Shown: one piece after another, positions 287-37,190 of the stretch
Position numbering within the stretch: the stretch's first letter is position 1
Layout: every line of letters begins with the position of its first letter
From: Candidatus Kapaibacterium sp.
GTDB lineage: Bacteria > Bacteroidota > Ignavibacteria > Kapaibacteriales > HRBIN21
DNA: 64,000 nucleotides
NCBI GenBank assembly: GCA_938084565.1
Contig: CALKEU010000013.1
Location: forward strand, 1-64,000
Direction: 5' to 3'
Made by a program: the position numbers and the translations under genes
The notes under the pieces: model-generated
Told to the model about the DNA's origin: nothing
Seen by the model: the letters and a program-made list of their open reading frames with translations, nothing else
Databases searched by the model: none

Positions 287-1570
287 CTACGCGTGCACTG
301 TGGCAAGCTGGCGGAGTTCCTGGAGGGTCAGCGATTTCGGCCGGACGATTGGGGTGCCGAGGATACGGTGGATGAGGGTCTGAGCGCAGATGCCCAGGGC
401 GCGGGAGACACCGAACATGACCGTGTAGAACTCGAACTCCCGCATGCCGGAGACGTAGAGCAGCACGCCGGAGATGGCGTCCACATTCGGCCAAGGGTTT
501 TGGGCCTTACCGTGGCGGCGGAGCACCTGCGGCACGATGCGATAGAGCTGATCGACGAGGGCGATGAGCTCGTGCTGGAGCTGCCAGCGGTGGGCAAACT
601 GCTGGAAGAGGAGGAAGCGGGGGTCAGTGACGCGGAGGACGGCGTGGCCGTAACCGGGGATGACGTGGCCGCTGGTGAGCCATTGCCAGAGCTCCTGTTC
701 GAGAGCTTCGTCGCTGGGCGAGGTGCCGAGCTTGCCGAGCAGCTGGAGGAGGAAGCGGAGGCACTCTTGGTTTGCCAAGCCGTGGAGTGGGCCGGCCAGG
801 CCATTCAGACCAGCGCTGATGGCGTAGAAGGGGTCAGAGAGGGCGGAGGCGACCGTATAGCCGGTCATGGCGCTGACGTTGCCGCCTTCGTGATCGCTGT
901 GGAGCACGAGATAGAGGCGGACAAGATCGCGAAACTGCCCCGTTGGGTCTGGAAGGCCGAGCATTGCGGCGTAGTTGGAGGCCCAATCCAGCGTTGGGTC
1001 TGGAGGAAGTGGCTCAGCCTGGTGGAAGCGGATACGGTAGATGCCAGCCGCAAGCGTCGTGATGCGGCTCAACAGCATCAGACAGTCCTCCAGCCAGGCA
1101 TGCCAGAGTTGTGCGCGGGGGACACCCTCTTCGAAGGCTCGGCGGAAGGCTGACTCACGCTCCATGGCCAGCAGTCCAAGGCTCAGCATGGCCATGGGGT
1201 GGCTGTCCGAGGGAAGGGCCTTCAAGGCTTGCCAGACGTAGTCGGGGACTGTAGCATGCTCGGCCCAGAATTGGCGCAGCCAGGCCGTCTGCTCGGCCGT
1301 GGGGAGCTCCCCCGTGCAGAGGAGCCAGAAGATCTCCTCAGGGGTGCGATCAGCCAGCTCAGCAATGGGGATGTCCCGGATGCGCAGCCCTTCGTTTGGC
1401 ACGACGAGGGAGGTTTCGCACAGGAGAGCCGGCACCCCGCGCATGCCGCCGATGACCTGGCGTGCCTGAAGCGTGGCGATAGTGGCTGTTCCGTGCTGTG
1501 CCAGGAAGGTTTGCAATTGCTCTTGCCACTGGGGAGCAAGCTCTGTCAAGCGCTGGTGTAGAGGGTGCAT
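287..1570 (-). CDS. gltA: Citrate synthase, mitochondrial-like Si type
   Basis: Condenses acetyl-CoA and oxaloacetate to citrate in the TCA cycle (cytoplasm). The 427-residue protein carries the catalytic triad in motifs GPLHGLAN (His263), PGYGHAVLR (His309) and NPWPNVDA (Asp364). The spacings of 46 and 55 residues equal those of pig mitochondrial citrate synthase (His274, His320, Asp375). Other stretches, such as SDHEGGNVSA near 225 and FGVSRALG near the C-terminus, also look mitochondrial rather than like E. coli GltA. An upstream in-frame ATG at 1708 would start upstream of the promoter element at 1626-1634 and nearly abut the tRNA gene, so I use the ATG at 1570. The gene is monocistronic and diverges from tRNA-Glu. 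Confidence 0.93.
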   Translation of the reverse strand: MHPLHQRLTELAPQWQEQLQTFLAQHGTATIATLQARQVIGGMRGVPALLCETSLVVPNEGLRIRDIPIAELADRTPEEIFWLLCTGELPTAEQTAWLRQFWAEHATVPDYVWQALKALPSDSHPMAMLSLGLLAMERESAFRRAFEEGVPRAQLWHAWLEDCLMLLSRITTLAAGIYRIRFHQAEPLPPDPTLDWASNYAAMLGLPDPTGQFRDLVRLYLVLHSDHEGGNVSAMTGYTVASALSDPFYAISAGLNGLAGPLHGLANQECLRFLLQLLGKLGTSPSDEALEQELWQWLTSGHVIPGYGHAVLRVTDPRFLLFQQFAHRWQLQHELIALVDQLYRIVPQVLRRHGKAQNPWPNVDAISGVLLYVSGMREFEFYTVMFGVSRALGICAQTLIHRILGTPIVRPKSLTLQELRQLATVHA

Positions 1571-1625: not shown

Positions 1626-1634
1626 GCAAACTTA
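1626..1634 (-). promoter_or_regulatory. TAnnTTTGC promoter element for citrate synthase
   Basis: TAAGTTTGC on the minus strand, 55 nt upstream of the ATG at 1570. It lies inside the longer possible reading frame starting at 1708 and so supports the shorter start. It faces away from the tRNA-Glu promoter, about 60 nt apart. Confidence 0.6.
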
Positions 1635-1694: not shown

Positions 1695-1703
1695 TAATTT
1701 TGC
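1695..1703 (+). promoter_or_regulatory. TAnnTTTGC promoter element for tRNA-Glu (and bcp)
   Basis: TAATTTTGC ends 9 nt before the 5' end of tRNA-Glu, the same spacing as the identical element before tRNA-Ser at 43403. It is the only promoter candidate seen for the peroxiredoxin gene that follows the tRNA. Confidence 0.65.
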
Positions 1704-1712
1704 ACCATTGAC

Positions 1713-1784
1713 GGCGCATTCGTCTAGCGGTTAGGACACCGCCCTCTCAAGGCGGAAACGGGGGTTCGACTCCCCCATGCGCTA
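1713..1784 (+). tRNA. tRNA-Glu (CTC anticodon)
   Basis: A full cloverleaf can be drawn. The acceptor is GGCGCAT/ATGCGCT with a G-U closing pair. The anticodon stem CCGCC/GGCGG encloses the loop CTCTCAA, giving anticodon CTC. The T arm is GGGGG-TTCGACT-CCCCC, and the discriminator is A1784. CCA is not encoded. The peroxiredoxin start codon follows after two nucleotides. Confidence 0.95.
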
Positions 1785-1786
1785 CG

Positions 1787-2260
1787 ATGGTATGGAGGCG
1801 AGTACAGGGCCGTAGGGCTCCGGCGTTTGAGCTTCCGGGTGATGACGGGGCCGTATGGGGGATAGAGGGGCTGCGGGGGCAATGGGTGGTGCTGGTTTTC
1901 TACCCTCGGGATTTCAGTCCGGTCTGCACGGCGCAGCTGTGCCACTACGGGCAGTGGTGGCAGCGGGAGCCGCTCCGGGGGGTTGTCGTGCTGGGGATCA
2001 GCCCGGACACGGTAGCACAGCACGGGCGCTTTCGGCAGCGATATCGGCTTCCCTTTCCGCTCCTGGCCGATGAGAGGCTGGAGGTCTTTCGCCGGTATGG
2101 GATGGTGCTCTTCGGGGTAATGCCGGCCCGGGGGATCGTGGTCATTGATCCGGAGGGGCAGATTCGGTGGTGGTGGCGGAGTCTGACGGGGCTACGGTAT
2201 CCTTCGGCGCAGCGCGTATGGCAGATTCTGCAGCGGTTGCAGTCCGTCGATGGGGCTTGA
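1787..2260 (+). CDS. bcp: Peroxiredoxin, PrxQ/BCP type
   Basis: Thiol peroxidase of the thioredoxin fold that reduces H2O2 and organic peroxides (157 residues, cytoplasmic, no signal peptide). The active-site stretch PRDFSPVCTAQLC puts the peroxidatic Cys at 47 and the resolving Cys at 52, the C-X4-C spacing typical of atypical two-Cys PrxQ enzymes. The ATG starts 2 nt after the tRNA-Glu discriminator base, so there is no room for a ribosome-binding site downstream of the tRNA. The N-terminal spacing to the conserved G-x-x-AP motif fits this start. The mRNA is probably released by tRNA 3' processing. The end overlaps the next gene by 11 nt. Confidence 0.88.
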   Translation: MVWRRVQGRRAPAFELPGDDGAVWGIEGLRGQWVVLVFYPRDFSPVCTAQLCHYGQWWQREPLRGVVVLGISPDTVAQHGRFRQRYRLPFPLLADERLEVFRRYGMVLFGVMPARGIVVIDPEGQIRWWWRSLTGLRYPSAQRVWQILQRLQSVDGA

Positions 2261-3242
2261 GCTCACCGAGCAGGAGCGGCAGTGGTTGCGGGAGCAGGCT
2301 GCGCAATGGGCAGAGACTGACGTTATCCCGGAGGAGGTCTGTGCATGGATATGGCAGCGGGGATGGTTTAAGCTCTTCGTACCGGCCAGCTGGGGGGGAC
2401 AGGAGGCGCAGCTTTCGCAGGCTGTGCGGCTCTATGAGGAGCTGGCTGAGCTGGATGGCAGTGTGGCGTGGCTGGTGCAGATTGGGGCCGGGGGTGGATT
2501 CTTCGTGCCCTTCTTAGAGCCTGACATAGCCCAGCAGCTCTTCTGCCCACCCGAAGCAGTGCTGGCCGGCTCAGGGGCTATCGGAGGGAGAGCGCACCGG
2601 GTTGCGGGGGGATATCGTCTCAGCGGGCGCTGGCGCTTTGCCAGCGGGGCACAGTATGCGACATTTTTCACAGCGAATGCGTGGGTGGAGGAGGAACAGG
2701 CCGTGCGCGCCTTTGTGCTGCTGCCTGAGCAGGTGCAGCGGGAGCGTGATTGGCACTCTCTCGGCATGCGGGCGACTTCGTCGTGGAGTATTGCCGTAAA
2801 TGAGGTGGTCGTGCCGGAGCAATACACCTTTGTCGTGGGTCAGAAGCGCTGGGAGCCGGGGCTTGCCGTCTACGGACTTCCCTTTGAGTTCTTCGCTGCG
2901 GCCTCCATTGGCGCTGTTGCGCTGGGGTTAGCCGTCGCTTTCGTGCAAGAGTTGCGGTCGCAAGGGGGGCTAGAGTGGGGGTGGCGTCTCATCCAGGCGG
3001 CGCGGCGGCTCTTCCACGAAGCAGTCGCGCAGGGGGAGGAGGCAGTCCGGAGTGGAGCAGAGCTCGGGGAACAGACTGTGCGCCTGCTGCGGGCTGCTGT
3101 AGCGCTGGCACGTCGCTGCTTTTGGGACCTCCTGCCGCGGGCGGGGATGGCTGCAGTGCTGGAAGGGAAGAGGCTGGGGCGCATCGTACGGGATTTCGTG
3201 ACGGTGTGTCAGCATCGGATGCTCTACACGGAGGGGGCATGA
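2250..3242 (+). CDS. Acyl-CoA dehydrogenase-like flavoprotein (possible class D monooxygenase)
   Basis: A 330-residue protein of the acyl-CoA dehydrogenase superfamily. It has an N-terminal helical part with LFVPASWGGQEA, a central beta domain (roughly residues 105-200, LSGRWRFASG) and a C-terminal four-helix bundle ending GRIVRDFVTVCQH. The central and C-terminal motifs resemble the Acyl-CoA_dh_2 group, which includes flavin-dependent monooxygenases of the HpaB/HsaA/DszC type, more than beta-oxidation dehydrogenases. I cannot place the catalytic base of true acyl-CoA dehydrogenases. It is shorter than the usual 370-400 residues. It overlaps bcp upstream and the permease downstream (ATGA), so the three are probably co-transcribed. 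No flavin reductase partner is in the window. Substrate unknown. Confidence 0.75.
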   Translation: MGLELTEQERQWLREQAAQWAETDVIPEEVCAWIWQRGWFKLFVPASWGGQEAQLSQAVRLYEELAELDGSVAWLVQIGAGGGFFVPFLEPDIAQQLFCPPEAVLAGSGAIGGRAHRVAGGYRLSGRWRFASGAQYATFFTANAWVEEEQAVRAFVLLPEQVQRERDWHSLGMRATSSWSIAVNEVVVPEQYTFVVGQKRWEPGLAVYGLPFEFFAAASIGAVALGLAVAFVQELRSQGGLEWGWRLIQAARRLFHEAVAQGEEAVRSGAELGEQTVRLLRAAVALARRCFWDLLPRAGMAAVLEGKRLGRIVRDFVTVCQHRMLYTEGA

Positions 3243-4462
3243 GGGAGTATGCCCAGCTCTTCGGGCTGCTGGGGAGGCGCTTTGCGCGGGTTGGTGTCGG
3301 GGGCTTCTTTCGGCTCTCCCGCGTTGTAGCCTTCGGGAGTGTCTTCCTGGGCAGCATGGCGCTGACGCTGGCGCTGGCCATTTTGGAGGGCTTTCAGCAG
3401 ACACTCTATGAGCAGGCGCTGCGCTTTACGTGGCATGTGCAGGTGCGTACCTTTGGTGGAGGGGCATTTGCTTACGGAGCCGTCGTGGAGCGTCTTGCGC
3501 AGGGATTTCCGGATGCCATTGTTGCGGCTGTGCGGGAGCGGGAGGCTCTGCTGCGGACGCGGGAGGGGATCGAGGGCGTGCTCCTGCGCGCACTGAGTAT
3601 ACCACCAGAGCGGAGCCCTGTCCCCCTGCGCTGCGTGGAGGGGAGCGCTGGATTTAGCTCGGACACGGCTGCTGAGGTGCTGCTCGGGGAGGCGCTTGCA
3701 CGAAAGCTTGGGGTCCGCGCAGGGGATACAGTGGTTGTCATAACAACCGATGGAAGCAAAGGGGAGCTCCGCCCGCTCGTACAGCAAGTGCGCGTGGTGG
3801 GTATCTACCGCAGTGGGCTCATGCGGTACGAGGAGCTCTATGTCTATCTGCCCTTTGGGCGGGCGGGCCTGTTATTGGGGTTGCCGGAGTTTGCCGCCAC
3901 GGGAGTTGATCTGCTGCTGCGGCGTGCATCGGTGGAGGCTCTGCGCTCGGCGCCGGCACAGGTGGAGCAGCTGCTGCGCTTTCCCTTCACTGCGCTGGGC
4001 CTCTACGAGCTGCATCAGCCCATGTTTGCCTGGATTGAGCTGCAACGAGTGCCCATTCCGCTGGTGTTAGGCTTGCTGAGCCTGGTGGCTGCCTTCAACG
4101 TGTTTACCTTCCTGGTGCTGCTGGTGGTGGAGCGGACACCCAGTTTCGCTATTCTGCAGGCCTTAGGGATGGGGCAGCGGCAGCTGCGGCATTTTCTGCT
4201 CTGGCAGGGGATTCGGCTCAGCGGGACAGCGGCAGTGGCAGGCTCTGCCGGAGCTCTGCTCTTGGCTGCCCTCCAGGAGTGGTTGGGGCTTATCCGCCTG
4301 CAGGGAGCCTTCTACTACGTGGATAGGCTGCCGGTGGCCTTCGTGTGGTGGCATCCGTTGGTGGTGATCGCTGTTGCTGTGCTCTTGGCTGGTGCGGCCA
4401 GCGTGATTCCCGCTCTGGTGGCGCGGCGCATCCCAGTGACGGCCCTGCTGCATCTGCGCTAG
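3239..4462 (+). CDS. FtsX-type ABC permease, LolC/LolE-like
   Basis: A 407-residue inner-membrane permease with the LolC/E/MacB layout: one TM segment near residues 30-50, a large periplasmic domain (about 55-275), then three TM segments near 280-310, 325-350 and 370-400. The signature ERTPSFAILQALGM after TM2 is the usual FtsX-family cytoplasmic loop. Family members work with an ATPase (LolD) to release lipoproteins from the inner membrane to LolA. LolA is encoded at 29646-30209, but no LolD is in the window. Its ATG overlaps the preceding stop (ATGA), which fixes this start over an upstream extension. The true substrate is not proven, because MacB-like exporters share the fold. Confidence 0.82.
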   Translation: MREYAQLFGLLGRRFARVGVGGFFRLSRVVAFGSVFLGSMALTLALAILEGFQQTLYEQALRFTWHVQVRTFGGGAFAYGAVVERLAQGFPDAIVAAVREREALLRTREGIEGVLLRALSIPPERSPVPLRCVEGSAGFSSDTAAEVLLGEALARKLGVRAGDTVVVITTDGSKGELRPLVQQVRVVGIYRSGLMRYEELYVYLPFGRAGLLLGLPEFAATGVDLLLRRASVEALRSAPAQVEQLLRFPFTALGLYELHQPMFAWIELQRVPIPLVLGLLSLVAAFNVFTFLVLLVVERTPSFAILQALGMGQRQLRHFLLWQGIRLSGTAAVAGSAGALLLAALQEWLGLIRLQGAFYYVDRLPVAFVWWHPLVVIAVAVLLAGAASVIPALVARRIPVTALLHLR

Positions 4463-37181: not shown

Positions 37182-37190
37182 TAATTTTGC
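37182..37190 (+). promoter_or_regulatory. TAnnTTTGC promoter element for bamD
   Basis: TAATTTTGC ends only 7 nt before the bamD ATG at 37198, so transcription starting at the usual distance would give a leaderless or nearly leaderless mRNA. Confidence 0.6.

Follow-up and report, generated by a model that had tools for sequence, protein, structure and literature searches.

Introduction

In Candidatus Kapaibacterium sp., a gene for a bcp/PrxQ-like peroxiredoxin starts almost at the 3' edge of a tRNA-Glu(CTC) gene, and this locus raises the question of whether maturation of the tRNA also makes the 5' end of the peroxiredoxin message. tRNA punctuation is known for animal mitochondrial transcripts, and mixed tRNA-mRNA operons, e.g., tyrU-tufB of E. 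coli, are known in bacteria. In the known mixed operons, the tDNAs are described as coming first (PMC1183518). A first-pass annotation of the present DNA had proposed a leaderless bcp message, which is released by tRNA 3' maturation and whose supply is tied to tRNA processing. We have examined this proposal in the window, i.e., the whole stretch of 64,000 nucleotides analyzed here (positions 1 to 64,000 of contig CALKEU010000013.1, assembly GCA_938084565.1), and by a comparison of six genomes of the family: the present genome (G000) and five relatives (G001 to G005).

Gene content of the locus

Features of the locus are listed in Table 1. Reading of the sequence placed the ATG of bcp (1787-1789) 2 nt past the discriminator A1784, and the abutment of the two genes described in the first-pass annotation is thus borne out. 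The range given by ARAGORN for the tRNA is 1713-1785, as against the Rfam end of 1784, because ARAGORN counts one following C. At the Rfam ends, each of 267 surveyed tRNAs, including this tRNA-Glu, forms six or seven of the seven acceptor pairs and leaves a one-base overhang.

Table 1. Coordinates of features around the tRNA-Glu/bcp junction in the window
Feature	Position	Strand	Remarks
Citrate synthase	287-1570	-	NF007128, E 1e-143; divergent neighbor in 5/5 relatives
TAAGTTTG, likely -7 box of divergent citrate synthase	1627-1634	-	
TAATTTTG, sigma-A type -7 box	1695-1702	+	For tRNA-Glu and presumably also the downstream genes; predicted transcription start near 1707
tRNA-Glu(CTC)	1713-1784	+	Rfam end; discriminator A1784; CCA not encoded
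CG, gap between discriminator and ATG	1785-1786	+	C1785 is the position-74 C, as in all surveyed tRNA genes
bcp/PrxQ-like peroxiredoxin	1787-2260	+	ORF, 157 aa; PF00578, E 1.9e-31
GGAGG, in frame	1794-1798	+	Possible remnant of a ribosome-binding site (sequence read)
GTA codon	1802-1804	+	Aligns with start codons of relatives; 17 nt past discriminator
Acyl-CoA-dehydrogenase-like gene	2250-3242	+	PF02771/PF08028; overlaps end of bcp; follows bcp in 5/5 relatives
LolC/E-like lipoprotein-release permease	3239-4462	+	TIGR02212, E 1.7e-37, below cut-off; overlaps preceding gene; 5/5 relatives

The product of bcp has the AhpC/TSA domain (PF00578) at 109 bits, far above the cut-off of 26, and its translation carries a Cys-x4-Cys motif, CTAQLC, as read by eye. 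Since its scores are under the NCBIfam equivalog cut-offs (68.7 bits vs. 260 for the best PrxQ model, and 59.7 vs. 140 for NF006960), "bcp" is used here as a family-level name for a PrxQ-like protein that is not itself a named equivalog. For the divergent citrate synthase, the longest ORF is 287-1708 on the minus strand and has an internal ATG at 1570-1568. Because 1708 is upstream of the likely -7 box TAAGTTTG at 1634-1627, we have taken ATG 1570 as the start, and the position of the box implies that it would be the better of the two. The plus-strand form of this box, GCAAACTTAGCAAA, was found by eye in most of the six genomes.

Conservation of the locus

The order of divergent citrate synthase, TAnnTTTG box, tRNA-Glu, bcp, acyl-CoA-dehydrogenase-like gene and lolC/E was found in all six family genomes, with tRNA-Glu(CTC) directly upstream of bcp in each. 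Identities to the five relatives were 71-80% for citrate synthase, 44-63% for bcp, 48-60% for the acyl-CoA-dehydrogenase-like gene and 66-80% for the LolC/E-like permease. A chance neighborhood of tRNA-Glu and bcp was rejected, because the identical tRNA isotype and gene occur together in six of six genomes. For other families of the order, 55 genomes were searched, and a tRNA was present in none of the 24 best loci examined, each of which included up to 1.5 kb on either side; these loci may hold paralogues.

The distance from the discriminator to the start codon is 2 nt in the present genome, and 17, 18, 14, 19, and 17 nt in G001 to G005, respectively. The junction, whose conservation the first-pass annotation had named as a point to check, is therefore kept as a tRNA-Glu/bcp pair in all six genomes, whereas the 2-nt gap is found in this genome only.

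Probable promoter of the tRNA-Glu/bcp unit

The sigma-A -7 box of Bacteroidota has been described as TAnnTTTG at -12 to -5 (PMC9723704; PMC7366714). A box of this form (TAATTTTG) is located 17 or 18 nt upstream of tRNA-Glu in all six genomes. Throughout the window, 17 TAnnTTTG boxes were observed as compared with 7.0 expected, and 17 was reached by one of 100 shuffles. No -33 TTTG was found between 1660 and 1690 by reading of the sequence, which weighs against the model given below; this element was likewise reported as not found in F. johnsoniae (PMC7366714).

From the tRNA-Glu start to the ATG of bcp, no TAnnTTTG box was detected, and the best words there have two to three mismatches of six in each of the six genomes. 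By this motif search, the tRNA's own promoter is the sole candidate, as had been claimed. In all six genomes, the leaders are too short to hold a separate promoter unless it lies within the tRNA body, and co-transcription of tRNA-Glu and bcp from the tRNA promoter is likely. A separate promoter might be located inside the tRNA-Glu gene and drive bcp, and the message would then be independent of tRNA processing. Stable-RNA genes may indeed hide promoters that are beyond a motif search, including those of other sigma factors, but the mismatched words mentioned above and the constraint on the tRNA sequence make such a promoter very unlikely. A sigma-70 scan also placed no site there; it gave three promoter-like sites, none of them near tRNA-Glu, with a consensus that is wrong for this bacterial group.

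Position of the bcp start

Within a stretch that reaches 30 nt upstream and about 60 nt downstream of the discriminator, ATG 1787 is the sole in-frame ATG/GTG/TTG, and it has been accepted as the start because there is no other such codon in frame. The first-pass annotation had cited the N-terminal spacing of PrxQ in support of this start. The comparison speaks against that argument: starts of the relatives are four to six codons upstream of the A-P-x-F motif, whereas ATG 1787 is ten codons upstream.

Since the relatives' starts match the GTA codon at 1802 of the present genome, the bcp start appears either to have moved upstream to the tRNA edge or to have been displaced in the draft by one wrong base. 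If the real start is at 1802, with a codon that is truly GTG or ATG or with a GTA that is weakly used, the message would carry a leader of 17 nt, similar to the relatives, and would not be leaderless. This fits the relatives, both in distance from the discriminator (14-19 nt) and in distance from A-P-x-F, and the extra residues MVWRR of the present genome have no counterpart in them. A GGAGG is found immediately upstream of 1802, and GGGAGG is present in the 14-nt bcp leader of G003. However, the given sequence reads GTA, which is no standard start codon, the 3 nt from GGAGG to GTA is short for a ribosome-binding site, and ATG 1787 is intact and in frame. We consider a misplaced start rather unlikely on this balance, and the use of AUG 1787 would be the least certain step of the processing model given below. 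As to the leaderless message proposed at first, the 2-nt gap of this genome agrees with it, whereas the longer leaders of the relatives do not.

Processing model for the bcp message

In the model that we favor, a single transcription unit would comprise tRNA-Glu(CTC), bcp and both of the overlapping genes downstream, and it would be transcribed from the sigma-A promoter TAATTTTG at 1695-1702. The tRNA-Glu would be excised by RNase P and RNase Z. Of the two cuts, the one of RNase Z type, probably sited at the tRNA-Glu 3' end, would determine where the bcp message begins. A cut after A1784 would give 5'-CGAUG, and a cut after C1785, if C74 is left on the tRNA, would give 5'-GAUG. Thus, a near-leaderless bcp message would be translated from AUG 1787 in the present genome, and an equivalent cut would leave leaders of 14-19 nt in the five relatives.

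Enzymes for this processing were searched for in the six genomes. An RNase Z gene (TIGR02651) is present in all six and is over the curated cut-off in four; the scores of G000 and G002 are 286.3 and 287.4, respectively, vs. 292.95. The HxHxDH motif is found in RNase Z of all six genomes, and a search for P-x-K-x-R(N) in the six sequences gave no match, a result to which no weight is given. One gene for the CCA-adding enzyme is present in each genome. The presence of RNase Z in six of six genomes, together with the short spacing, argues for cutting by tRNA 3' maturation, and cutting of the message at the tRNA-Glu 3' end would be a reasonable consequence of having RNase Z and the CCA-adding enzyme. 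A plain energy fold of the precursor contained no cloverleaf (z -0.31), and folding therefore gives no support to the processing reading.

Leaderless messages, with leaders of less than 10 nt, have been reported as 3.7% in B. thetaiotaomicron (PMC7366714), and leaderless messages as 5.5% in F. psychrophilum (PMC9723704). These low shares would count against a leaderless bcp message. A precedent for such a start within the genus is given by rqcH, whose start is 2-6 nt after tRNA-Arg(TCT) in all six genomes, and it supports the model for bcp. As a whole, co-transcription from the tRNA promoter, a tRNA 3' maturation cut and a near-leaderless bcp message make up the best reading of the locus, and we regard it as moderately probable.

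Compactness and tRNA-to-gene spacing

Among 47 genes called in the window by a simple codon-usage script, 24 of 30 same-strand neighbors are within 40 nt of each other. We also surveyed tRNAs having no following tRNA for a conserved same-strand ORF within 60 nt, using distances to first starts rather than to true starts. Such an ORF was found for 19/35 tRNAs in the present genome and for 17/36, 22/35, and 22/34 in three relatives (G001 to G003), while the numbers were 7/35 and 5/36 in two genomes of other families; this contrast is rough and biased, because the genomes of the genus confirm one another's ORFs and the other two were compared with distant references. Genes confirmed by Pfam behind tRNAs include those for IF-3, EF-P, an epimerase, and NFACT/RqcH. 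Since short gaps between tRNAs and genes are found across the genome and the window, tight spacing is part of the style of a compact genome, and the bcp junction is one instance of this habit.

These data also bear on the view that bcp is coupled to tRNA-Glu maturation for the sake of regulation, so that peroxide defense would be tied to tRNA processing. Retention of the tRNA-Glu/bcp pair in six of six genomes would fit such a device. However, the flanking genes on both sides are also retained, so that conservation of gene order suffices to explain the pair, and about half of the surveyed tRNAs of the genus have unrelated genes behind them with comparable spacing. With tRNA and gene packing being tight genome-wide, the initially claimed tie of bcp supply to tRNA processing, if taken in a regulatory sense, is not supported, and we consider it extremely improbable.

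The tRNA-Arg(TCT)-rqcH unit

A stronger case of close tRNA-to-gene spacing than tRNA-Glu/bcp is the tRNA-Arg(TCT)-rqcH unit, which is encoded on the minus strand of G000:C7 in the present genome. The start of rqcH is 5, 4, 6, 3, 2, and 5 nt past tRNA-Arg(TCT) in G000 to G005, respectively, where the gap includes the C that ARAGORN adds to the tRNA. On the other side, a peptidyl-prolyl isomerase gene (identity by Pfam) ends upstream of the tRNA, with gaps from its stop codon of 0, 0, 6, 1, 1, and 0 nt in the same order. Downstream of rqcH, tRNA-Arg(TCG) follows at 12-16 nt in all six genomes, and reading of the sequence showed that the TAA stop of rqcH doubles as the beginning of the tRNA-Arg(TCG) -7 box (TAAATTTG or TAATTTTG) in each of them. 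Coding sequence, tRNA, rqcH and second tRNA thus stand close together in the six genomes, separated by 0-6, 2-6, and 12-16 nt, respectively.

No exact -7 box was found in the 60 nt upstream of tRNA-Arg(TCT) in any of the six genomes, and one word with one mismatch was found in G005. The rqcH start is credible, since the M-I/L-x-H start is visible at the seven loci of other families with first residues listed. In other families, none of the 24 RqcH loci examined, of 52 with a match, is preceded by a tRNA within 1 kb.

Constant C74 and a possible cut site

A C directly follows the discriminator in 267 of 267 tRNA genes of four genomes of the genus (G000, G001, G002, G003) and two of other families (G008, G015), and positions +2 and +3 are variable in these genes. 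The window conforms to this, with C1785 and a C after each of the other three tRNAs. A C was also found in 26 of 26 further tRNAs of the phylum from 25 genomes outside this one; these represent 26 of 28 new loci, two being without coordinates, and are top-scoring tRNAs rather than a random draw. The full CCA is encoded by 1/45, 2/47, 3/45, 0/45, 0/41, and 6/44 tRNAs in the six surveyed genomes; the number in an acidobacterial genome is 29/30. Because C74 is constant while the full CCA is rare, the sequences suggest that the tRNA 3' cut falls after C74.

Cuts of this kind have been described: extracts of spinach chloroplasts cut the tRNA 3' end after C74 (PMC3161902), and in P. acnes the cut lies between the two Cs (PMC3848588). 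A similar cut here would keep C74 on the tRNA and shift the message 5' end by one base. The present case differs in that the cut is deduced from the C74 of every surveyed tRNA gene; furthermore, P. acnes is without an obvious RNase Z, whereas an RNase Z gene is present in the six family genomes.

Comparison with known systems

Like mitochondrial tRNA punctuation, the present locus has a tRNA directly before a coding sequence, and excision would yield a near-leaderless message; in the rqcH unit, the tRNA is in addition preceded at 0-6 nt by the end of a coding sequence. Unlike it, these units belong to a bacterial genome in which promoters are numerous, one of them serving tRNA-Glu, and the arrangement is limited to some genes and is known from sequence. 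The resemblance to bacterial mixed operons such as tyrU-tufB is that a tRNA leads and protein genes follow behind a single promoter. The differences are that the spacing is 2-19 nt and leaves no room for a normal leader (bcp, 2 nt here and 14-19 nt in five relatives; rqcH, 2-6 nt in 6/6), and that the rqcH unit has a coding sequence ahead of the tRNA. In the literature covered, which mostly leaves out subscription journals, no bacterial message made leaderless via tRNA 3' processing was found. Trimming of a tRNA which also forms the front of the bcp message would be a variant of a known idea.

A broader proposal is that, in the genus and perhaps in the wider phylum, tRNA excision regularly makes the 5' ends of messages. 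If RNase Z or a similar activity cuts past the always-encoded C74, leaders of 1-5 nt would be left (rqcH in 6/6, bcp here), and rqcH between two tRNA-Arg genes would represent a bacterial tRNA punctuation. We put this forward tentatively, with the chances somewhat against it. If true, a free-living bacterium frees near-leaderless messages through tRNA maturation like mitochondria, and it offers a testable setting for the reading of leaderless messages with a 5'-phosphate. The constant C past the discriminator would predict the position of the tRNA 3' cut across the phylum. Taken by itself, the bcp junction is a modest and conserved curiosity in a compact genome.

Other starts in the window

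Shine-Dalgarno-like words precede 8 of 46 called starts in the window, as compared with a background of 6.6%, and initiation without such a word is therefore usual here, which is in favor of the model for bcp. A called gene start lies 8 nt past the end of a TAATTTTG box at 37182-37189 on the plus strand, and this gene may possibly have a message that is leaderless from the transcription start itself.
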